Shown here in pieces: positions 2,332 to 15,758 of a stretch of 61,291 bases of DNA. The notes beneath the pieces were generated by a model, which worked only from the letters and a program-made list of their open reading frames with translations, searched no databases and was not told the origin of the DNA. Origin of the DNA: an uncultured Opitutaceae bacterium (GTDB lineage Bacteria > Verrucomicrobiota > Verrucomicrobiia > Opitutales > Opitutaceae). Where the stretch lies: positions 1 to 61,291 of the forward strand of contig CAIYUN010000023.1 in assembly GCA_903929355.1 (NCBI GenBank). The letters run 5' to 3'. Every line of letters begins with the position of its first letter. Positions within the stretch are counted from its first letter, which is position 1. The translations under genes were made by a program, and so were the position numbers.

Positions 2332-3597
2332 TCAGAGGACGTAGGGCAGCGGAAAACGGCCGGTGAGCGCGGCCACGCGGGTCTTGGTGGCGGCGAGGGC
2401 GTCGGCCTCAGCGGGGGTCCCGATGGCCTTGAGGACCGTGTCGATGCAGCCGGCGATCTCCTCCATGTCCTTTTCAACCATGCCGCGCGTAGTCACCGCG
2501 GGGGTGCCGAGGCGGATGCCGGAGGCCTGGAAGGGCGAGCGCGTCTCGAAGGGCACGGTGTTCTTGTTGCAGGTGATATGGGCGAGATCGAGGGTCTCCT
2601 GGGCCTTCTTGGCGGTGAGCTCGGGCAGGTTGGCGCGGAGGTCCACGAGAAAGAGGTGGTTGTCGGTGCCGCCGGAGACCACCCGGTAACCGCGCGACTG
2701 CATCGCGGCGCAGAGGGCGCGCGAGTTTTTGATGATCTGGGCCGAGTAGACCTTGAACTCCGGCTTGAGGCACTCGAGGAAGCAAACCGCCTTGGCGGCG
2801 ATCACGTGCATGAGCGGACCGCCCTGGGCACCGGGGAACACGGCGGAGTCCACCGCCTTGGCGTGCGCGGCGCGGCAGAGGATGAGGCCGCCGCGGGGCC
2901 CGCGCAGGGTCTTGTGCGTGGTGGTCGTCACAAAATCGGCGTGCGCGACGGGCGACGGGTGCAGCCCGGAGGCGACGAGGCCAGCGATGTGCGCGATGTC
3001 GGCGAAAAGAAACGCGCCAACCGAGCGCGCGATCTCACCCATGCGGGCAAAGTCGATGACGCGCGAGTAGGCGCTCGCCCCGACGGTGATCATCTTCGGC
3101 TGCTCGCGGAGGGCGGTGGCGGCCAGCTCATCGTAGTCGATCAGGCCGGTGTCCTCGCGGACGCCGTACTGGACAAAGCGGTACAGCTTGCCGGAAAAGT
3201 TGGCCGGGTTGCCGTGGGTGAGGTGGCCGCCATGGCTGAGGTTCATGCCGAGGATCTTGTCGCCGGGCTGAAGCACCGAAGTGTAGACGGCAAAGTTGGC
3301 CTGCGAGCCGGAGTGGGGCTGGACGTTGGCGTGTTCGGCGCCGAAGAGCCGTTTGGCCCGCTCGAGGGCGAGGGTCTCGACCTTGTCCACCTGCTCGCAG
3401 CCACCGTACCAGCGTTTGCCCGGGTAGCCCTCGGCGTATTTGTTGGTCAGCACGCTGCCCTGCGCCTGCATGACGGCGGGATAGGTGAAATTTTCCGAGG
3501 CGATCAGCTCGATGTGGCCCTGCTGGCGGGCAAATTCGGCGGTGATGGCGGACCAGATCTCGGGGTCCAGGGAGGAGAGCGGCGAGGCGTTGAGCAT
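2332..3597 (-). CDS. glyA: Serine hydroxymethyltransferase
   Basis: Catalyses interconversion of serine and glycine with tetrahydrofolate, feeding one-carbon metabolism; PLP enzyme in the cytoplasm. The 421-residue product has the family's usual length and clear signatures: [18 protein letters not shown] near the start, [34 protein letters not shown], and the PLP-lysine block [18 protein letters not shown] 3597 (MLNASPLSS) is chosen because the 33 upstream in-frame residues look like translated intergenic DNA. It stands alone, convergent with the gene at 1744. The upstream 446-bp gap holds a repeat element rather than another gene. Confidence 0.97.
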
Positions 3598-3719
3598 GGT
3601 GAGGAAAGTGCGGAAGGCGGAAGGCTGAGGGCGGAATGGCAAGACGGAAAGGGAGAGGCTCGCGCAACGGGGCCAAGGAGGCAAAGAAAAATCCACGGGG
3701 CGCGGGCCGGCGCGCCTGA

Positions 3720-3962
3720 TGATTCACGAAGGAAGGGATGGGGCGACCACAAGGACGGGGTCTTCGCCTATGACCTACCCAAACAAAAACCTGCAACCAC
3801 TTATTCACACTAATTTGCACTGATCCGATCCTCAGCATCAGTGTTCATAAGTGTCAATCAGTGGTTGATACCCGACCGTTGGAAAAGTTCTCATCCAAGT
3901 TTTCCAAGAGTTGTGGGTCATTCATAATCATTGGGTTGGAATCATCCATGAATCGGCACTGG
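3720..3962 (+). mobile_element. MITE-like repeat, copy A (~243 bp)
   Basis: Nearly all of this segment reappears in reverse complement at 38821-39064. The two copies share both ends (TGATTCACGAAGGAAGG at one end, AATCGGCAYTGG at the other) and the intervening sequence with scattered substitutions. It is AT-richer than its surroundings and non-coding. Copy A is flanked by a perfect 16-bp direct repeat, GGGCCGGCGCGCCTGA, at 3704-3719 and 3962-3977, which looks like a target-site duplication. Inside is an imperfect inverted pair (3797-3824 and 3837-3864) made of ~10-bp units of the type CACTNATNCA. No transposase is present, so any mobility would depend on a gene elsewhere. Confidence 0.75.
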
Positions 3963-4714: not shown

Positions 4715-4861
4715 GGTGACCGGTTTCAGCCCGGTCACCAGCGGCGGGGTTGCTTCCAACATGGGCACGAAAAGTTCGCCGGCAACACCGCACCCGACGC
4801 AGGGCTTCACGCCATTCTCCTCGTAGCCATGACGGCCTCCGCCGTCTGATGGCGTACGCCA
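4715..4861 (+). promoter_or_regulatory. Structured leader of kdpA1: three dyads
   Basis: Between the shared promoter-like element and kdpA1 lie three perfect dyads. The first is a 9-bp stem GGTGACCGG / CCGGTCACC with a 7-nt loop (4715-4739). The second is GACGGC-CTCC-GCCGTC (4831-4846). The third is the palindrome TGGCGTACGCCA (4850-4861). The first could act as an attenuator hairpin or be a REP-like repeat. No c-di-AMP riboswitch signature was recognised. A 7-codon reading frame (ATG 4686, stop 4709) precedes it and sits where cassette 2 has a 29-residue peptide. Confidence 0.35.
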
Positions 4862-4919
4862 CCAGGCTCCCGGCCGAAGGCGCAAGATCCGGAATAATCC
4901 ACCCTCCGCAGTTCCCACC

Positions 4920-6761
4920 ATGACCACCAACGAAATCATCCAAATTGTCCTCTTTTTTGGCATTGGCATAGCGCTGACACCCATACTCGGGCGCTTCATG
5001 TTCAAAGTCTACACGGGGGAGAAGACCTGGCTGCACCCCGTGCTTCAACCGGTCGAGAAGCTGGTCTATTGGGCGACCGGCATAGACCCAGCCGAGGAGA
5101 TGACGTGGCTGCGCTACCTCTGGGCCGTGGTGCTCATGACCACGGTCGGCTTTGCGTCCCTGATGGCGATCCTCATGACGCAAAAATGGCTGCCCTTCAA
5201 CCCGGCGGGTCAGGACAACCTCTCGTGGCATCTGGCGTTCAACACTGCCTGGAGCTTCACCTGCAACGCCGACTGGCAGTCCTACTCGGGGGAGGCGGTG
5301 ATGAGCTATTTTTCCCAGACGATCGGCCTGTCGGTGCACCAGTTTATCAGCGGTGCGGCCGGACTCGCAATCCTGGTGGCGGTGGGCCGGGCCTTGAAAC
5401 GCGCCTCGGTCAAAACCATCGGCAACTTCTGGGTGGACCTCACCCGCGGCACGATCTATATCGTGATTCCGCTGTCCATCCTCTGGGCGATCCCGCTGGC
5501 GTGGCAAGGGGTGCCGCAGGCCTGGCAGAATTACGCGACCGCGAAACTGGTCGAGCCCTACACCACGTCGGTGCCGAAGCTGGACGACAAGGGCAACGCC
5601 ATCACCAAGTCGGTGCCCAAGACCGACGACAAGGGCCAGGCGGTCAAGGACGACAAAGGACAGCCCGTCATGGTGGACCAACCCGTGATGGTGGACCAAA
5701 AAGTGGACGAGCAAATCATCCCGGTCGGCCCGGTGGCGTCGTTCGAGTCGTGCAAACAGCTCTTCACCAATGGCGGCGGCTGGTTTGGCGTGAACAGCGC
5801 CCACCCCCTGGAAAACCCGACGCCGCTCGCGAACTTTCTCGAGCTGCTCGCCATCATCATCGTGCCGATGGCGCAGGTATTCATGTTTGGCCTGCTGGTC
5901 GGCAATGTGAAGCACGCGTGGTGCATCTTTGCGGTGATGCTTGGTTTGTATGTGGCCTCGTTTGGCGTCGCCTGGTGGGCGGAGGTGCAGCCCAACCCGG
6001 TCACCGACAACATCGTGCCGCACATGGAGGGCAAGGAACAGCGGGAGGGCGTGATGAACAGCGTGCTGTGGGGCATCTCCGCCACCGCCATCGACAACGG
6101 TTCGGTGAACTCCATGCACGACAGTTGGATGCCGCTGGCCGGACTGATGCCGATGTGGAATATCCTGGTCGGCGAGATCGAGTTCGGCGGCATCGGCTGC
6201 GGCATGTATTGCATGCTCTTCCATATCCTCATCACCGTCTTCATTGCCGGACTGATGATTGGGCGAACACCGGAGTATCTGGGCAAAAAACTGGACGCGT
6301 GGTGCGCGACCTGGGCGGTCATCGGGGTCCTGCTGCCCAACGCCGCGTGCCTGATCCCGACCGCGATGTCGGTCGTGATGGACGCGGGCACCTCGAGCAT
6401 GGCCAACCAGGGCCCGCACGGCTTGAGCGAGGTGCTCTACGCCTTCGGCGAGGCGGCGAACAACAATGGCAGCGCCTTTGCCGGTCTCAACGCGAACACC
6501 CCCTGGTATGACGTGGCCCTCGGCGTGGCCATCATCATCGGCCGGTTCGCGCCCATCGCCGCGGCGCTCGCCATTGTCGGCCGGCTGGCGTCGAAAAAGA
6601 CGGTCGAACCCTCCGCCGGCACGCTGCCGACGCACGGGTGGACCTTTGGGCTCACGCTCACCGGCGTTATCATCATCGTCGCCGCGCTCACCTTTTTCCC
6701 CGCGCTGTGCCTCGGGCCGTTCATTGAGCACGGACTGATGCTGGCCGGCCGCACCTTTTAA
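4920..6761 (+). CDS. kdpA: Potassium-transporting ATPase, KdpA channel subunit (divergent copy 1)
   Basis: Inner-membrane K+-selective subunit of the KdpFABC pump; 613 residues against about 557 in E. coli. Four pore-loop regions are recognisable but altered: loop 1 reads [12 protein letters not shown] (residues ~113-124; usual TNTNWQSYSGE), loop 2 [20 protein letters not shown] (~281-300; usual [20 protein letters not shown]), and loop 3 [10 protein letters not shown] (~393-402; usual CGAVNAMHDS). Loop 4 [10 protein letters not shown] is canonical. The central glycines remain. A ~50-residue hydrophilic insert (~215-268) with SVPKxDDKG and VMVDQ repeats sits before loop 2 and is shared with copy 2. 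It is first in the operon, 20 bp before kdpB. The changed loops suggest altered affinity or selectivity; that is inference. Confidence 0.93.
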
Positions 6762-6781: not shown

Positions 6782-8860
6782 ATGAGCACAAGTTTCAAAA
6801 TCAACTATTCCTCGCTGATCCGCCAGGCGGTGATTGACTCGTTCAAAAAGCTGCACCCACGCGACGAGATCAAAAACCTCGTCATGTTCGTGGTGTGGCT
6901 CGGCTCGATTCTCACCACCCTCTGGCTCTTCAAGGACTGCTCGCGCTTCAACGTGCAGATCTGCCTGTGGCTGTGGTTCACCTGCCTCTTCGCCAACTTC
7001 GCCGAGGCGATGGCCGAGGGCCGGGGCAAGGCGCACGCGGACGAACTGCGCAAGATGCGCACCAAGACGGTCGCCAAGAAGCTGGTCAATGGCAAGGAGG
7101 TCTCCGTGCCGAGCAGCGAGCTCAAGATCGGCGACCGGGTGGTCTGCACGCCCGGCGACCTGGTGCCCGCCGATGGCGAGGTCGTGGAGGGCATCGCCAC
7201 CGTGGACGAATCGGCGATCACGGGCGAGTCCGCGCCGGTGGTGCGAGAGAGCGGGGGCGACCGCAGCGCCGTGACCGGCGGCACGCGGGTCACGAGCGAC
7301 CGCATCGTCGTCCGGGTGACGGCGGAGGAGGGGAACTCGTTCCTCGACCGGATGATCGCCATGATCGAGGGCGCGCGCCGGCAGCTCACGCCCAACGAGA
7401 TCGCCCTGAACATCGTCCTGGTCAGCCTGACGGCGCTGTTCATCGTCGTGGTGCTGGCGTTGCCGCCCATGGCTCTCTTCAACGAAAAGGCCGCCGGACA
7501 GACCGACGTCGTACTCACCTCACTACCGGTGCTGCTCGCACTGATTGTCTGCCTGATCCCCACGACCATCGGCGGGCTGCTCAGCGCCATCGGCATCGCC
7601 GGCATCGACCGGCTGATGCGCCGCAACGTCCTCGCCACCTCGGGCCGCGCGGTTGAGGCGGCGGGCGACGTCGACGTGCTTCTGCTCGACAAGACGGGCA
7701 CCATCACGCTCGGCAACCGCCAGGCGACGGAGTTCATCCCCGCCCCTGGTGTCGCGCTCGACGTGCTCGCGGACGCCGCCCAGCTCGCCTCGCTCGCGGA
7801 CGAAACGCCCGAGGGTCGCAGCATCGTCACGCTCGCCAAGGAGAAATTCAACCTGCGCGGCCGCGACGTGGCGGGACCGCTTGTCAAATTCGTCCCGTTC
7901 AGCGCGCAGACCCGCATGAGCGGCGTGGACCTGGCCGCGCACGACGGAAAGGCGGCCCGGCAGATCCGCAAGGGTGCGGACGCCAGCGTCCGGGCCTGGG
8001 TGGAGTCACACGGCGGCCTCTATGTGAACGAGGTCGTGGCCGCAGTGGAAAAGATTTCCCGGGCCGGCGGGACGCCGCTGGTCGTGGCGGAGAATGAAAA
8101 TGTCCTGGGCGTCATTCTCCTCAAGGACATCGTCAAGGGCGGCATCAAGGAGCGTTTCGCGCAGCTCCGCACGATGGGCATCCGCACCGTGATGATCACC
8201 GGGGACAACCCGCTGACCGCCGCCGCCATCGCGGCCGAGGCGGGGGTGGACGACTTCATCGCCCAGGCCAAGCCCGAGGACAAGCTGGCGCGCATCCGGC
8301 AGGAGCAGTCCGGCGGCAAGCTCATCGCCATGATCGGCGACGGCACCAACGACGCGCCCTCGCTCGCGCAGGCCGACGTCGGCGTGGCCATGAACTCCGG
8401 CACGCAGGCCGCCCGCGAGGCCGGCAACATGGTGGACCTGGACTCGAACCCGACGAAACTGATCGAGGTCGTGGAGATCGGCAAACAGCTGCTGATGACC
8501 CGCGGCGCGCTGACGACTTTCTCGATCGCGAACGACGTGTCCAAATATTTCGCGATCATCCCCGCGATGTTCGGCATTCTCTATGCCACCAAGCCGGGCG
8601 GGGTCGGCCCGCTCGACAAGATGAACATCATGTATCTGCACTCGCCGGAAAGCGCGATCCTGAGCGCGGTCATCTTCAATGCGCTGATCATTGTCGCCCT
8701 CATCCCGCTCGCGCTCAAGGGCGTGAAATACCAGCCGCTCGGCGCGGCGGTCATCCTGCGCAAGAACATGCTCATCTATGGCGTCGGCGGCATCATTGTG
8801 CCGTTCATTTTCATCAAGCTCATCGACGTGTTGTTGGTGGCGGTCCACCTCGCCCCGTAA
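6782..8860 (+). CDS. kdpB: Potassium-transporting P-type ATPase, KdpB (copy 1)
   Basis: Catalytic P-type ATPase subunit of KdpFABC; 692 residues, normal for the family. Visible motifs: the actuator TGES ([13 protein letters not shown]), including the serine that is phosphorylated to inhibit the E. coli pump; [22 protein letters not shown] in the membrane region (the family-typical PTT where other P-types have CPC); the phosphorylated aspartate in [15 protein letters not shown] near residue 302; and the hinge [19 protein letters not shown]. It lies 20 bp after kdpA and 23 bp before kdpC, consistent with one transcript. Confidence 0.97.
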
Positions 8861-8883: not shown

Positions 8884-9489
8884 ATGTTCAAACTCATCCT
8901 CCAATCCATCCGCCAGACGCTGGTCTGGACCGTCATCACGGGCATGTTGTATCCACTCTTAATGACGCTGGGCCTCCAACTGTTGTTCCGGAACCAGGCC
9001 ACCGGCAGCCTCGTGGAGCGCGACGGCAAGGTCGTGGGCTCCGCGCTACTGGCGCAGCAGTTCCAAGGCGCGACCTATTTCTGGCCCCGGCCCTCCGCCA
9101 ATTCCTATGGGATCTCCGCCGCGATGTCCGGCAACAGCCTTGCCGCCAGCTCCGGGAGCAATCTTGGTCCGACTAGCACAACGCTTCAAACCAATGTGCG
9201 GGCGGCGGCCAAGGCGTTCCGCGACGCCAACAAGCTGGCCGCCGACGCGCCAGTGCCCGCAGACATGGTCTATGCCTCCGCCAGCGGCCTTGACCCCCAC
9301 ATCAGCCCCGAGGCCGCACAGTTGCAGGTCGCGCGGGTCGCCGACGCACGCAAGGCCGGCGTGGACGACATCAAGGCGCTGGTCGAAAAATCCATCGAGC
9401 CGCCGCAATGGGGCTTCCTGGGCCAGTCCCGGGTCAATGTCCTCATGCTCAACCTGGCCCTGGACGAAAAGTTTCCCGTGAAAAAGTGA
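8884..9489 (+). CDS. kdpC: Potassium-transporting ATPase, KdpC (copy 1)
   Basis: Single-span accessory subunit that stabilises KdpAB; 201 residues. An N-terminal TM helix (TVITGMLYPLLMTLGLQLL) is followed by the family motifs SALLAQQFQGATYFWPRPS, SGSNLGPTS, ADAPVPADMVYASASGLDPHISP, a helix with ARVADARKAGV, and the C-terminal GFLGQSRVNVLMLNLALDE. Start ATG 8884 has an AG-rich leader (accagaaaggcac). It is followed within 10 bp by a small membrane protein that copy 2 also has. Confidence 0.96.
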   Translation: MFKLILQSIRQTLVWTVITGMLYPLLMTLGLQLLFRNQATGSLVERDGKVVGSALLAQQFQGATYFWPRPSANSYGISAAMSGNSLAASSGSNLGPTSTTLQTNVRAAAKAFRDANKLAADAPVPADMVYASASGLDPHISPEAAQLQVARVADARKAGVDDIKALVEKSIEPPQWGFLGQSRVNVLMLNLALDEKFPVKK

Positions 9490-9499
9490 GGGACATGCC

Positions 9500-9661
9500 A
9501 TGAAACCCGACCTGAACACCAGCAGGGACCATCGGTTTTACCAGGTGGTGCTGATCGGGCTCATCCTGGCGACGATCGTGCTCTGGCTTTCCGACAAGAG
9601 CCACCAGCCCACCGGTGCATCCCGCATTACGTGGCCGGTTTGGTTGCAATCCGGCCAGTAG
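9500..9661 (+). CDS. Small one-TM protein following kdpC (copy 1), PTGxSRIxWPxW family
   Basis: 53 residues: a charged N-terminus (MKPDLNTSRDHRFYQ), one hydrophobic helix (VVLIGLILATIVLWL), then a short tail SDKSHQPTGASRITWPVWLQ. A homologous 55-residue protein follows kdpC of the second cassette and keeps the helix, a D(x)H(x)PTG(A/G)SRI segment and W-P-x-W near the end. The start lies 10 bp after kdpC. Conservation of the tail between two diverged cassettes argues for a real product. It could be an extra Kdp subunit or assembly factor; no named family was recognised. Confidence 0.7.
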   Translation: MKPDLNTSRDHRFYQVVLIGLILATIVLWLSDKSHQPTGASRITWPVWLQSGQ

Positions 9662-9686: not shown

Positions 9687-9923
9687 ATGAACTGGCTGAC
9701 CTTATTTGGCCTGGTAGCGGTGACCGCCATGTTGGTGTGTTATGCGTTGGAGGCGCGCAGCCATTGGTTCATCCTCGGCTTTGCTTTCGCCTGCGGTCTG
9801 GGATCGGCCTATGGTTTCCTCCAAGGGGCGTGGCCTTTCGGGGTAGTCGAGGCGATCTGGGCGCTGGTGGCGGGGCGGCGGTGGTTCCTGGTGCGCCTTT
9901 GGACGCGCGGCTGCAGATTTTGA
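9687..9923 (+). CDS. Small conserved hydrophobic protein at the end of kdp cassette 1
   Basis: 78 residues, almost entirely hydrophobic with two or three short TM segments: MNWLTLFGLVAVTAMLVCYA, then HWFILGFAFACGLGSAYGFL and GAWPFGVVEAIWALVAGRRW. It is very close, in protein and DNA, to the protein at 15525 behind the second cassette. Related small proteins occur widely in bacteria as unnamed membrane proteins. ATG 9687 is 25 bp after the preceding small gene. Its linkage to both Kdp cassettes suggests a shared role or simple co-duplication. Confidence 0.75.
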   Translation: MNWLTLFGLVAVTAMLVCYALEARSHWFILGFAFACGLGSAYGFLQGAWPFGVVEAIWALVAGRRWFLVRLWTRGCRF

Positions 9924-10026: not shown

Positions 10027-10116
10027 ATGATGAACGATCTACTCTTCATAGCCGCCTCGGTGGCCTTTTTTGTCCTCTGCGCGGGCTACGCTCACTTTTG
10101 CCAAAAAGTGCGGTAG
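10027..10116 (+). CDS. 29-residue membrane peptide upstream of kdpF
   Basis: Reads MMNDLLFIAASVAFFVLC then AGYAHFCQKVR: one TM helix with a short basic tail. A second ATG lies at 10030. Short peptides of this MNDLLFIA type occur just upstream of kdpF in other bacteria, usually unannotated or named hypothetical; that statement is from memory. It sits directly after the shared upstream element. In cassette 1 the equivalent spot begins ATGAACG but stops after seven codons. It may be a Kdp accessory peptide or a leader peptide. Confidence 0.55.
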   Translation: MMNDLLFIAASVAFFVLCAGYAHFCQKVR

Positions 10117-10307: not shown

Positions 10308-10391
10308 ATGGAAAACATCCTCATCGGTCTCATCGCCCTCGCCCTCCTCGTTTATCTCGTGGTCGCCGTCCTGCGCCCGGAGAAATTTTAA
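10308..10391 (+). CDS. kdpF: KdpF subunit of the potassium pump
   Basis: A 27-residue hydrophobic peptide, MENILIGLIALALLVYLVVA then VLRPEKF, matching the size and the basic RPEKF end of KdpF, which stabilises the KdpABC complex in the inner membrane. It ends 18 bp before kdpA of cassette 2. No equivalent was found before kdpA of cassette 1, where only dyads and a seven-codon frame are seen, so KdpF either serves both pumps or cassette 1 works without it. Confidence 0.88.
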   Translation: MENILIGLIALALLVYLVVAVLRPEKF

Positions 10392-10409: not shown

Positions 10410-12272
10410 ATGAACAATCCCAACGCCTGGTTCCAATTTGCGCTCTATGTCGGCGCGCTCCTCCTCGTCACCAAGCCGCTCGGGCTTTACCTGATGCAGG
10501 TGCTCGATCCCCGCGGCCGGACATGGCTCGACGCGGTGGTCCGCCCGGTGGAGAGGCTCACCTACCGCCTGTGCGGGATCAACCCGGAGCAAGAACAAGG
10601 GTGGATCGGCTATACGTTTGCCCTCCTCGCTTTCAGCCTCGTTGGACTGCTGTTCACCTATGTCATCCTACGCTATCAGGACCACCTGCCACTGAACCCG
10701 CAGGGATTGCCCGGCCTGACGCCCCATCTCGCTTTCAACACCGCCGCCAGCTTCACGACGAACACCAACTGGCAGAGCTACACGGGGGAGGCGACCATGT
10801 CGTATTTCTCCCAGATGGTGGCGCTCGCGATCCATAACTTCACCTCTGCCGCCACGGGGATCGCCATCGCCGCCGCCCTGGTGCGCGGCATCGCCCGCCA
10901 ATCGGCCCAGACGATTGGCAACTTCTGGACCGACACCGTGCGCGTGACCTATTACCTGCTGGTGCCGGTCTGCTTCGTGTTCGCGCTGTTCCTGGTGTCG
11001 CAAGGCATCATTCAGAATTTCAAGCCCTACACCGTCGCCAAGACCTACGAACCCTACACCATTTCGGTGCCCAAATTGGACGACAAGGGCAATGCGGTCA
11101 CCACCTCGGTGCCCAAAACCGATGAGAAAGGCCAGCCGGTCATGGACGCAGCGGGGAAGCCGGTCATGGTGGACCAGCCGGTCATGGTGGACCAGAAAGT
11201 GGACACCCAGACCATCGTCCAAGGGCCGGTGGCCTCGCAAATCGCCATCAAGATGCTGGGCACCAATGGTGGCGGCTATGTGAACGCCAACGCCGCCCAT
11301 CCGTTCGAAAATCCGACGCCGCTCTCCAATTTTTTCCAGATTCTTTCGATTTTCGCCATCCCGAGCGCGCTCACCTACTATCTGGGCCGGATGGTGAAAA
11401 ACCAGCGGCACGGCTGGGCGGTGTGGGGCGCGATGTTCGCCATGTTTGTCGCGGGCGTGCTTGTCGCCTGGGAGGCCGAGGCCTCGGGCAACCCCATCCA
11501 CCAAAAGCTCGGGGTCGCCGCGGCCGACGGCAACATGGAGGGCAAGGAGGTGCGCTTCGGCATCTTCAACTCGGCGCTTTTCGCCACCATCACGACCGAC
11601 GCCTCGTGCGGCGCCGTCAACGCGATGCACGACTCCTTCACCCCGCTCGGCGGCCTGGTGCCGCTGTTCAACATCGAGACCGGCGAGGTCATCTTTGGCG
11701 GGGTGGGCGCGGGCCTCTACGGCATGCTCATCTTTGTGGTGCTCGCGGTGTTCATCGCCGGACTGATGGTCGGACGCACGCCGGAATACCTGGGTAAAAA
11801 GATTCAGGCCTATGACGTGAAACTGGTCATCCTGGTGCTCATGGTCCTCGCTGCGACGATCCTGGGTTTCACGGCCCTGGCCAGCGTCTCGCCCTGGGGA
11901 CTGGCCGGGCTCAACAACAGCGGTCCGCATGGGTTCAGCGAGATGCTCTACGCCTTCAGCTCCGCCGTGGGGAACAACGGCAGCGCCTTCGCCGGGCTCA
12001 CCGCCAATGAGCCGCACTGGGACACAACGCTGGGCATCGCGATGCTGGTCGGCCGTTTCCTGATGATCGTCCCGATCATGGCGCTCGCGGGCAATCTCGC
12101 CGGGAAAAAGCTCATCCCCGCCAGCGCCGGCACCTTCAAGGTCGAGGGCTTCACCTTTATCGTGCTGCTCATCGGCACCGTGGTGCTCATCGGTGCGCTC
12201 ACGTTCCTGCCCGCCCTGGCGATGGGTCCGGTGGTCGAGCACTACCTCATGGGTGCTGGCACCCTGTTCTAA
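10410..12272 (+). CDS. kdpA: Potassium-transporting ATPase, KdpA channel subunit (canonical copy 2)
   Basis: 620-residue K+-selective subunit. All four pore loops are canonical: TTNTNWQSYTGE (~115-126), GTNGGGYVNANAAHPFENPT (~283), CGAVNAMHDSFTPLGG (~400) and NNGSAFAGL (~521). It carries the same type of extra hydrophilic segment as copy 1 (about residues 218-270) before pore loop 2, with SVPKLDDKG and SVPKTDEKG units and two VMVDQ units; E. coli KdpA lacks this. It follows kdpF by 18 bp. This copy is likely the high-affinity K+ pump, with copy 1 a diverged paralogue. Confidence 0.96.
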   Translation: MNNPNAWFQFALYVGALLLVTKPLGLYLMQVLDPRGRTWLDAVVRPVERLTYRLCGINPEQEQGWIGYTFALLAFSLVGLLFTYVILRYQDHLPLNPQGLPGLTPHLAFNTAASFTTNTNWQSYTGEATMSYFSQMVALAIHNFTSAATGIAIAAALVRGIARQSAQTIGNFWTDTVRVTYYLLVPVCFVFALFLVSQGIIQNFKPYTVAKTYEPYTISVPKLDDKGNAVTTSVPKTDEKGQPVMDAAGKPVMVDQPVMVDQKVDTQTIVQGPVASQIAIKMLGTNGGGYVNANAAHPFENPTPLSNFFQILSIFAIPSALTYYLGRMVKNQRHGWAVWGAMFAMFVAGVLVAWEAEASGNPIHQKLGVAAADGNMEGKEVRFGIFNSALFATITTDASCGAVNAMHDSFTPLGGLVPLFNIETGEVIFGGVGAGLYGMLIFVVLAVFIAGLMVGRTPEYLGKKIQAYDVKLVILVLMVLAATILGFTALASVSPWGLAGLNNSGPHGFSEMLYAFSSAVGNNGSAFAGLTANEPHWDTTLGIAMLVGRFLMIVPIMALAGNLAGKKLIPASAGTFKVEGFTFIVLLIGTVVLIGALTFLPALAMGPVVEHYLMGAGTLF

Positions 12273-12317: not shown

Positions 12318-14357
<2,040 letters not shown>

Positions 14358-14370
14358 ACCCAATCCTGCC

Positions 14371-14517
14371 ATGATCCACCACGATGAACATTCCCGCCTC
14401 CTGGCCTATGTGTTGGTGGCCCTGATCGCGTTGTTGACCGGCTACATCCTGGGCCAGAAGGACCGTCAGTCGGCCCCCAACATCCCAACAGACCATTGGC
14501 CGCATATTGTCCGTTAA
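14371..14517 (+). CDS. 48-residue one-TM protein between kdpB2 and kdpC2
   Basis: Starts MIHHDEHSR, then a TM helix LLAYVLVALIALLTGYILG, then a polar tail QKDRQSAPNIPTDHWPHIVR. It begins 13 bp after kdpB2 and ends 23 bp before kdpC2, so it is inside the operon with tight spacing. Cassette 1 has no room for it (23 bp between kdpB and kdpC). The tail carries a Pro/Trp pattern (TDHWPHI) loosely like the small proteins after kdpC. No family was recognised. Confidence 0.6.
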   Translation: MIHHDEHSRLLAYVLVALIALLTGYILGQKDRQSAPNIPTDHWPHIVR

Positions 14518-14540: not shown

Positions 14541-15137
14541 ATGAAAACTTTCCTCACCGAAATCAAAACCTCCGTCCTGATCACCCTGGTGTTTGCGGTG
14601 CTGTTGTGCGGGGCGTATCCGCTCGCCGTCTGGGCGGGAGCCCAGCTCCTGTTCCCCGCCAAAGCCAACGGCAGCCTCGTCACCGAGGCCGACGGCACCG
14701 TCCGGGGCTCCGCGCTATTGGCGCAGAGCTTCACCACGGACAAATACTTCCAGCCGCGCGCATCCGCCGCCGGCACCGGCTACGATGCGTCCAGCTCCGG
14801 TGGGACCAACCTCGGTCCGACGAGCCAAAAGCTGAACGACAGCATCAAGGCCGCGGTGGCCGCCTACCGCACCGCCAACGGGCTCGCCGCCGACGCGCCC
14901 GTGCCGGCGGACGCGGTGACCTCCTCCGGCAGCGGGCTGGACCCGCAGATCAGCGTGGCGAATGCCGGGCTCCAAGCCGCGCGCGTCGCCAAAGCGCGCA
15001 ACGTGCCGGTCGAAAAAGTCCAGGAACTCGTCGCCGCGCACACTGCGGGCCGCGACCTGGGGATTTTCGGCGAAGCAGGGGTAAATGTGCTGATGCTCAA
15101 TGTCGCGCTGGACCAGCAATACCCCGTGAAAAAGTAG
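14541..15137 (+). CDS. kdpC: Potassium-transporting ATPase, KdpC (copy 2)
   Basis: 198-residue single-span subunit. TM helix VLITLVFAVLLCGAYPLAVW is followed by the family motifs GSALLAQSFTTDKYFQPRPS-like region (here ASAAGTGYDASSSGG), NLGPTSQKL, ADAPVPADAVTSSGSGLDPQ, and C-terminal GIFGEAGVNVLMLNVALDQ. ATG 14541 (MKTFLTEIKTS) is chosen over an upstream in-frame ATG at 14496 that overlaps the preceding small gene. The next gene begins 12 bp later. Confidence 0.95.
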   Translation: MKTFLTEIKTSVLITLVFAVLLCGAYPLAVWAGAQLLFPAKANGSLVTEADGTVRGSALLAQSFTTDKYFQPRASAAGTGYDASSSGGTNLGPTSQKLNDSIKAAVAAYRTANGLAADAPVPADAVTSSGSGLDPQISVANAGLQAARVAKARNVPVEKVQELVAAHTAGRDLGIFGEAGVNVLMLNVALDQQYPVKK

Positions 15138-15149
15138 CCGCCACCCGCC

Positions 15150-15317
15150 ATGAAAGAACGCCCCACATTGGTGTTCAGGCGCTCGCACCGGATCTATCTG
15201 GCGATCCTGCTCGCGCTCACGCTGGCGGCGGTGGTGCTGTGGATCGCGGACCCCGACCACCGCCCGACCGGCGGCTCCCGCATCCCCTGGCCGACCTGGT
15301 CGCAACCCAGCCATTGA
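15150..15317 (+). CDS. Small one-TM protein following kdpC (copy 2), PTGxSRIxWPxW family
   Basis: 55 residues: basic N-terminus MKERPTLVFRRSHRIY, TM helix LAILLALTLAAVVLWIAD, then the tail PDHRPTGGSRIPWPTWSQPSH. The tail is the conserved part shared with the 53-residue protein at 9500: H(x)PTG(A/G)SRI(x)WP(x)W(x)Q. It starts 12 bp after kdpC2. The topology (positive N-terminus) suggests the tail faces the periplasm. Probably a Kdp-associated subunit; the function is not known. Confidence 0.7.
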   Translation: MKERPTLVFRRSHRIYLAILLALTLAAVVLWIADPDHRPTGGSRIPWPTWSQPSH

Positions 15318-15524: not shown

Positions 15525-15758
15525 ATGAGTTGGTTGACGATATTTGGTTTGGTGGCGGTGACCGCCATGCTGGTATGCTATGCCTTGGAGGCACGCAGCC
15601 ATTGGTTCATCCTCAGCTTTGCCTTCGCCTGCCTCCTTGGTTCGGCGTATGGGTTCATGCAAGGCGCGTGGCCCTTCGGCTTGGTCGAGGCGATCTGGGC
15701 GCTGGTGGCAGCCCGGCGGTGGTGGCTGGTCAGGCCAAAAACGCGCGCGGCAGATTGA
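15525..15758 (+). CDS. Small conserved hydrophobic protein at the end of kdp cassette 2
   Basis: 77 residues (MSWLTIFGLVAVTAMLVCYA..., ending WWLVRPKTRAAD) with two or three TM segments. It is highly similar to the protein at 9687, including the WPFG(L/V)VEAIWALVA block. Between it and the preceding small gene lies a 138-bp repeat element, so it may have its own promoter or have been separated from the operon by insertion of that repeat. Unnamed family; the role is inferred only from double linkage to Kdp. Confidence 0.75.
   Translation: MSWLTIFGLVAVTAMLVCYALEARSHWFILSFAFACLLGSAYGFMQGAWPFGLVEAIWALVAARRWWLVRPKTRAAD

Follow-up and report, generated by a model that had tools for sequence, protein, structure and literature searches.

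A family of small single-span membrane proteins encoded with kdp operons in Opitutaceae

Two kdp operons with small membrane-protein genes

KdpFABC is the textbook emergency potassium pump, with solved structures, and the Opitutaceae are soil and water bacteria. The DNA analysed here, a stretch of 61,291 nucleotides from an uncultured member of this family (hereafter the window), carries two complete kdp operons in line and belongs to a source genome of 3.8 Mb in 91 contigs. The small proteins termed S1 and S2, encoded behind the two kdpC genes, and their relatives elsewhere are referred to as S or the S family. The features of the region are as follows:

4920..6761, plus strand: kdpA of operon 1 (PF03814, E 1.7e-208)
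6782..8860, plus strand: kdpB of operon 1 (PF00122 and PF00702 over cut-off)
8884..9489, plus strand: kdpC of operon 1, kdpC1 (PF02669, E 1.3e-67)
9500..9661, plus strand: S1, 53 aa, single-span, PTGASRITWPVW tail, behind kdpC1 (family profile, E 1.0e-22)
9687-9923: Y1, a 78-aa membrane ORF behind S1
10027-10116: hydrophobic ORF of 29 aa (MMNDLLFIAASVAFFVLCAGYAHFCQKVR), upstream of kdpF of operon 2
10308..10391, plus strand: kdpF of operon 2, 27 aa (PF09604, E 2.7e-9; TIGR02115 over cut-off)
10410..12272, plus strand: kdpA of operon 2 (PF03814, E 6.5e-230)
12318..14357, plus strand: kdpB of operon 2, kdpB2 (PF00122 and PF00702)
14371..14517, plus strand: F2, 48 aa, single-span, in the gap between kdpB2 and kdpC2, lacking the SRxWP core (family profile, E 8.6e-4; L033 and L034 members matched by tblastn)
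14541..15137, plus strand: kdpC of operon 2, kdpC2 (PF02669, E 3e-68)
15150..15317, plus strand: S2, 55 aa, single-span, PTGGSRIPWPTW tail, behind kdpC2 (family profile, E 2.3e-21)
15525-15758: Y2, a membrane ORF behind S2

The sequence-only reading that preceded this work had described S1 and S2 as proteins of 53 and 55 aa, and both are indeed present as intact ORFs, each with an ATG start, no internal stop and a short distance (10 nt for S1, 12 nt for S2) between the kdpC stop and the S start codon. That reading recognised only these two proteins and missed F2, a third relative in the window. No KdpF-like ORF was found upstream of kdpA in operon 1. In the host genome, two kdpD genes were located, both on contigs other than the window's, and neither S1 nor S2 adjoins kdpD. 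A tblastn search with kdpB2 matched 463 plasmid records, and many of the 60 listed are annotated kdpB.

Between operons 1 and 2, identity amounts to 49% for KdpA, 71% for KdpB, 53% for KdpC, 51% for S and 83% for Y, and as judged from these values the operons are old, divergent relatives. A recent tandem duplication as the sole cause of the common tail is ruled out by the low identities of KdpA, KdpC and S, together with the occurrence of homologues elsewhere. The closeness of the Y pair behind both kdpC genes suggests that an S-Y segment was copied from one operon to the other. Y1 and Y2 (77-78 aa) have no Pfam or NCBIfam family over cut-off, and relatives were seen near kdp genes at loci L038 and L039 by tblastn and at L101 by eye. 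Likewise, the ORF at 10027-10116 has no match in Pfam or NCBIfam; similar ORFs precede kdpF at L033, L034, L036, L038, L040 and L123, and with a loose pattern ORFs of this type were found ahead of kdpA in 23 of 61 cases from other named organisms.

Anatomy, coding status and identity of the S proteins

A screen of the window for ORFs with a hydrophobic segment (six frames, longest start, 35-100 aa) returned 13, among which only S1 and S2 end in [ST]R[IV]xWP. In a global alignment the two proteins are identical at 27 of 53 aligned residues. Their tail stretch, H-x-PTG(A/G)SRI-x-WP-x-W-x-Q, had been called near-identical; it is conserved, with 11 of 16 residues identical, so that the wording was a little strong, and the description of the remainder as variable was overstated, given that 16 of the 37 other aligned residues are identical as well. 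The combination of a helix and an SR[IV]xWP tail recurs in 19 further intact sequences, for a set of 21, all but one of which measure 48-67 aa (the exception has 87). Across this set the PTGxSRIxWPxW motif proposed earlier contracts to a shorter shared core, SR(I/V)xWP, and PTG is not general. The distance from the helix end to SR is 7-10 residues in 18 of the 21 sequences, within a range of 5-15. Two styles can be distinguished: the first, that of S1 and S2, reads VLWFxDPxHxPxGxSRIxWPP, and the second (G020, G127, G126) combines YVLVALAALFTGYVLGLLGG with a further tail of the NPRSLYP type. The helix of F2 resembles the second style, and the SRxWP core is absent from it.

In support of the single transmembrane helix expected for each protein, AlphaFold2 applied to S2 with the family alignment (A2, see below) predicts one helix, at residues 9-33, and an extended tail, with a mean pLDDT of 79.5 and averages of 93-98 in residues 11-30 and 66-78 in the remaining ten-residue blocks. 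The N-terminus probably lies inside and the tail outside the membrane. This orientation is favoured by charge, the N-terminal flank being the more positive in 12 of the 21 sequences, the less positive in 4 and equal in 5, mainly through members of the S1/S2 style; for GYVLGLL-type members the charge-based topology is weak. A basic start, a hydrophobic core and a short tail would also befit a secreted precursor, in which the helix is a signal peptide and the tail is released as a peptide, but visual inspection of the residues that close the helix (WLSDKSH, WIADPDH) showed no apparent AXA-type cleavage site, and this reading appears very improbable.

Alignment of the S1/S2-style members, which were partly selected by their tails, shows 11 invariant columns, most of them behind the helix (D32, H35, G39, S41, R42, W45 and P46, in the numbering of the first sequence). 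The distribution of these columns bears on the possibility that S controls the stability or turnover of the pump through its helix, with the tail only orienting it or forming a protease handle. MgtR, MgtS and MgtU are stability or turnover factors of Mg2+ transporters, and S shares with such factors its small size and single helix; in addition, residues 10-23 of S1 match the MgtU model (NF040924) at E 0.0018. However, this match scores 17.8 bits, far under the cut-off of 33, S2 has none, and the invariant residues mostly follow the helix, which together make a role of this kind quite improbable.

Whether the S frames encode proteins can be judged from their codons. In the 21 sequences, serine of the core is encoded by TCC or TCG, arginine by CGC or CGG and proline by any of the four CCN codons, and seven codons occur at the I/V position; as the sequences were picked by motif, it is the synonymous changes, not the constancy of the motif, that constitute the evidence. 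The ten closest pairs give dN/dS ratios of 0.21-0.42 (for instance, dN/dS values of 0.26/1.07 for G020a and G126, 0.28/0.88 for G178 and G161, 0.34/1.13 for G172 and G161, and 0.36/0.85 for S2 and G003), and the 25 closest pairs give pN/pS ratios of 0.37-0.89. From the synonymous changes and the dN/dS ratios it follows that, at the level of sequence comparison, selection acts on the protein. A DNA-level motif was rejected, since the S, R, I/V and P residues are kept despite variation at their third codon positions. The source genome is rich in GC and in spurious antisense ORFs, and S could in principle represent chance open frames; given that 20 genomes have matches, that codons change synonymously beneath an unchanged motif and that dN/dS is below 1, this explanation is scarcely credible, and the homologues in other genomes exclude chance. 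Frame-disrupted versions, whose frequency would have counted against the family, are not common: a stop was noted at a single one of the 25 places described below (G230), where it simply terminates the ORF, and one possibly decayed copy was found in G200 (L121), as a 25-aa helix-like ORF that ends early.

No Pfam or NCBIfam model matches S1, S2 or F2 over its cut-off, in agreement with the earlier proposal of a new small-protein family. Membership in a named family was considered and rejected, with sub-threshold matches only (including SecE at 0.076, OapA_N at 0.037 and the MgtU match at 0.0018). At E <= 1, the KdpF models PF09604 and TIGR02115 match none of S1, S2 and F2, and the KdpC model PF02669 matches neither S1 nor S2. 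Among PDB sequences, four matches covering only the helix were obtained (E 0.33-0.52); plasmid records searched with the G178 member and phage records searched with S2 gave no match at E <= 1. In the open-access literature, as covered by the titles and abstract beginnings of the papers listed, no paper on an S ORF was found. The family of single-span proteins to which S1 and S2 belong is real and unnamed. The kind, a small single-span transporter partner, is known, and the family with this tail and this place is new to the sources searched.

Distribution and gene neighbourhoods

A search with S2 alone, in which the kdp context was not used, recovered S1 in its own genome (E 1.4e-14) and, among 57 genomes including its own, passed E 1e-3 in G003 (2.2e-12), G028 (4.0e-7) and G008 (1.8e-4). 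The G008 match lies in a kdpB/kdpC gap, that of G003 near a contig edge with a single ORF separating it from the kdpD downstream, and that of G028 4.3 kb behind kdpC. A profile search, as had been proposed earlier, was run with alignment A2, for which 19 sequences were taken from the tail-bearing set of 21 (G126 and G021b were excluded for their longer N-termini). Of 252 Opitutaceae genomes, 20 gave matches at E <= 1e-4, at 25 places in all. At 18 of the 25, S lies beside kdpC, a count that is not fully independent, as the profile was partly built from kdp-adjacent ORFs; the search with S2 alone is. The gene follows kdpC at 13 places (twice in G000, the genome of the window, and in G020, once each in G019, G021, G027, G127, G178, G180, G190, G206 and G208, where kdpC is truncated at the contig end) and occupies the kdpB/kdpC gap at five (G008, G161, G172 and G230 with a tail, G025 without the SRxWP core). 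In G021, ARIDLH replaces the core. The remaining seven comprise G199, with a copy some 270 nt upstream of kdpA, as well as G003, G028, a second copy in G178, and copies placed directly behind a protein kinase gene in G126, G127 and G021. Besides the position after kdpC that had been assigned to the family, S thus also occupies the gap and, once, a site before kdpA, and 7 of the 25 copies do not adjoin kdpC. Moreover, kdpC is present in 19 of the 20 S-bearing genomes as compared with 59 of the 252 overall. S is tied to kdp, as the sequence-only reading had supposed.

Independently of the profile, a positional control counted ORFs of 40-95 aa with a hydrophobic segment that lie in the kdpB/kdpC gap or start at most 60 nt after kdpC. 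Such an ORF stands at 32 of 67 Opitutaceae kdpC genes, compared with 3 of 75 in other named organisms (3 of 78 loci having been excluded for too little sequence behind kdpC) and 0 of 25 at other loci of the phylum. Tail-bearing ORFs number 14 of 67 in Opitutaceae against 0 of 100 elsewhere, or 15 of 67 with L111, which has the tail and scored under the hydrophobicity limit. At the other 35 of the 67 Opitutaceae kdpC genes (34 counting L111) no such ORF occurs, so that it is not essential. In operons resembling operon 1 (kdpC at least 60% identical to kdpC1), S stands directly behind kdpC in one of eight, that of the window.

Beyond the family, an order sample of 273 genomes was searched at E <= 1e-3, and the 7 genomes with matches all belong to Opitutaceae. 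The phylum sample held 318 genomes, 56 of them with kdpC, and none of the 45 kdpC-bearing genomes outside Opitutaceae had a profile match near kdpC or below E 1e-4. Weak matches outside Opitutaceae reach E 9.0e-5 at best, and those in kdpC-bearing genomes lie on another contig or at least 150 kb from kdpC. These searches scored about 21-27 of the initial candidates per genome, a depth at which weak relatives can be missed. In all samples searched, the confident matches, as scored by the profile, are confined to Opitutaceae. More distant ORFs in the same place have helices that end in DPSC or WQC; the DPSC-ending ones, weakly reached by the profile (L125, E 1.4e-3), are likely kin to S. G276 shows eight weak matches of equal score and frame length that are scattered and may represent copies of a mobile element with no relation to kdp. 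Beside a full kdpC, extra stretches that match only the last third of KdpC (model 125-182) were noticed elsewhere in the phylum (G465:C26, G498:C1, G548:C7).

Five of the 25 copies (the second in G178, and those in G028, G126, G127 and G021) lie kilobases from kdpABC or have none in reach, the G126 one being 2.7 kb behind kdpC in the same direction. Next to the second G178 copy is a TorF-like porin gene, and the one in G028 is flanked by ammonium transporter and amino acid permease genes. Both neighbourhoods would suit a small membrane protein with a general part in osmotic or cation stress, co-transcribed with kdp but active elsewhere, an idea that seems improbable in view of the 18 copies adjoining kdpC and of the presence of S at more than one position within the operon. 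Behind the second G178 copy (L151), 2648-2902 and 2975-3811, both on the minus strand, hold this porin gene (which passes the cut-off of PF09694 and narrowly fails that of TIGR02001) and a further small ORF with a single span and the sequence PHPRSLN.

A further neighbour is the kdpD gene, located with the G208 KdpD as query (PF02702, E 4.6e-91). The usual gene order is kdpABC-S-kdpD or kdpAB-S-C-kdpD, and in all 11 after-kdpC operons outside the window (those listed above other than the two of G000) kdpD lies at most about 0.7 kb behind S, in some cases with an ORF of about 120 aa between them. This arrangement raises the possibility that S is a Kdp regulatory peptide that would bind KdpD, or another kinase, in the membrane and report pump assembly or K+ status. 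The G003 copy, one ORF upstream of kdpD, and the copies adjoining protein kinase genes, accompanied in G126 and G021 by an OmpR-type regulator, point the same way. So does the two-hybrid interaction reported between mycobacterial KdpF and KdpD (PMC3618439). In the four tailed gap operons, by contrast, kdpD lies behind kdpC, which thus separates it from S; neither window copy adjoins kdpD, and the tail is predicted by charge to lie outside the membrane. The gap-placed and window copies speak against a KdpD link as the whole story. Since kdpD is usually next to S, this reading gains weight at the expense of a pump subunit, and it is the main rival, even if an unlikely one.

The ORF of about 120 aa between S and kdpD, seen at L128 (reverse complement 4789-5160), L035 (4000-4404), L038, L044 and L303, is hydrophobic towards its C-terminus and shares the conserved sequence F(I/V)(R/H)ELAAEGFI, and two such proteins scanned against Pfam gave no family over cut-off. 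At L104, L152 and L299, a protein kinase gene (PF00069) is directly followed by an S-type gene; L104 also has OmpR-type regulator and universal stress protein genes upstream, and L299 an OmpR-type regulator downstream.

A candidate accessory subunit of the potassium pump

S is a conserved gene under selection that stays with kdp operons of widely differing KdpC and does so in more than one operon position. This association with kdp, together with the variety of positions within the operon, leads us to favour, tentatively, the reading that S1 and S2 belong to an unnamed Opitutaceae family of accessory subunits of KdpFABC, which we regard as quite possible and still somewhat short of probable. 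S would insert with its basic N-terminus inside, its single helix would pack against the Kdp complex, and the SR(I/V)xWP tail, which would project from the membrane by a short length that varies little, would serve as the docking peptide expected earlier and bind the extracytoplasmic face, most likely on KdpC or on the KdpA/KdpC interface near the K+ entrance. S bound in this way might aid assembly or tune affinity or turnover, by analogy with FXYD on the Na,K-ATPase. Tests of association between S presence and the alignment columns of KdpC (484 residue tests, 67 sequences), KdpA (1232 tests, 50 sequences) and KdpB (1121 tests, 51 sequences) gave no value below 1 after Bonferroni correction, at low power, and the absence of a residue in KdpA, KdpB or KdpC that tracks S is a mild negative for a pump partner.

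The pump already has a small component in KdpF, which, like S, is a single-span peptide of kdp operons and perhaps part of the pump. Unlike S, KdpF of operon 2 has 27 aa, lies upstream of kdpA and is tailless; the operon encodes it alongside S2 and F2, and S does not match PF09604. Compared with a KdpF of about 30 aa directly before kdpA, S proteins are mostly of 48-67 aa, and one of the 25 places is before kdpA. In cyanobacteria, small ORFs between kdpB and kdpC are called KdpG. One of them, annotated kdpF in Synechococcus PCC 7002, lies between kdpB and kdpC by locus number, according to PMC6950573. KdpG resembles S as a small gene of the kdpB/kdpC gap, and no paper on KdpG of a kdp operon was found in the open-access literature; the KDPG of one paper retrieved is a sugar acid. 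MgtS, MgtR, MgtU and AcrZ are likewise small single-span proteins, each tied to one transporter; S differs in having no family match over cut-off, and these four are not known to have an invariant outside tail.

FXYD proteins, the gamma subunits of the Na,K-ATPase, are eukaryotic and carry a (P)FxYD motif N-terminal of the helix. By analogy they resemble S as single-span partners of a P-type ATPase with a short, invariant, membrane-near motif outside, by a beta-type subunit. They differ in that SR[IV]xWP is C-terminal of the helix and in the lack of any sequence relation; by eye, no (P)FxYD motif was found in any of the 21 S sequences. KdpC is described as a periplasmically oriented single-span protein that perhaps acts like the Na,K-ATPase beta subunit, and its role is named as an open point, in PMC6255902. 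An outside tail beside KdpC, itself compared with the beta subunit in that source (PMC6255902), suggests by analogy a gamma- or FXYD-like role for S. In its strongest form, S would be an independently evolved bacterial counterpart of FXYD and a fifth Kdp subunit, whose tail, docked outside on the beta-like KdpC, would determine K+ affinity or turnover, and the divergent paralogues S1, S2 and F2 would give pump variants of different settings in one cell; a proposal this specific we hold to be rather unlikely.

S adds to the small membrane proteins a family that is missing from the curated libraries searched. Should the accessory-subunit reading of S prove true, kdp operons would carry small parts beyond KdpF, and this additional subunit, natural and restricted to one lineage, would through its conserved outside motif offer a ready tool to probe that face of the pump.
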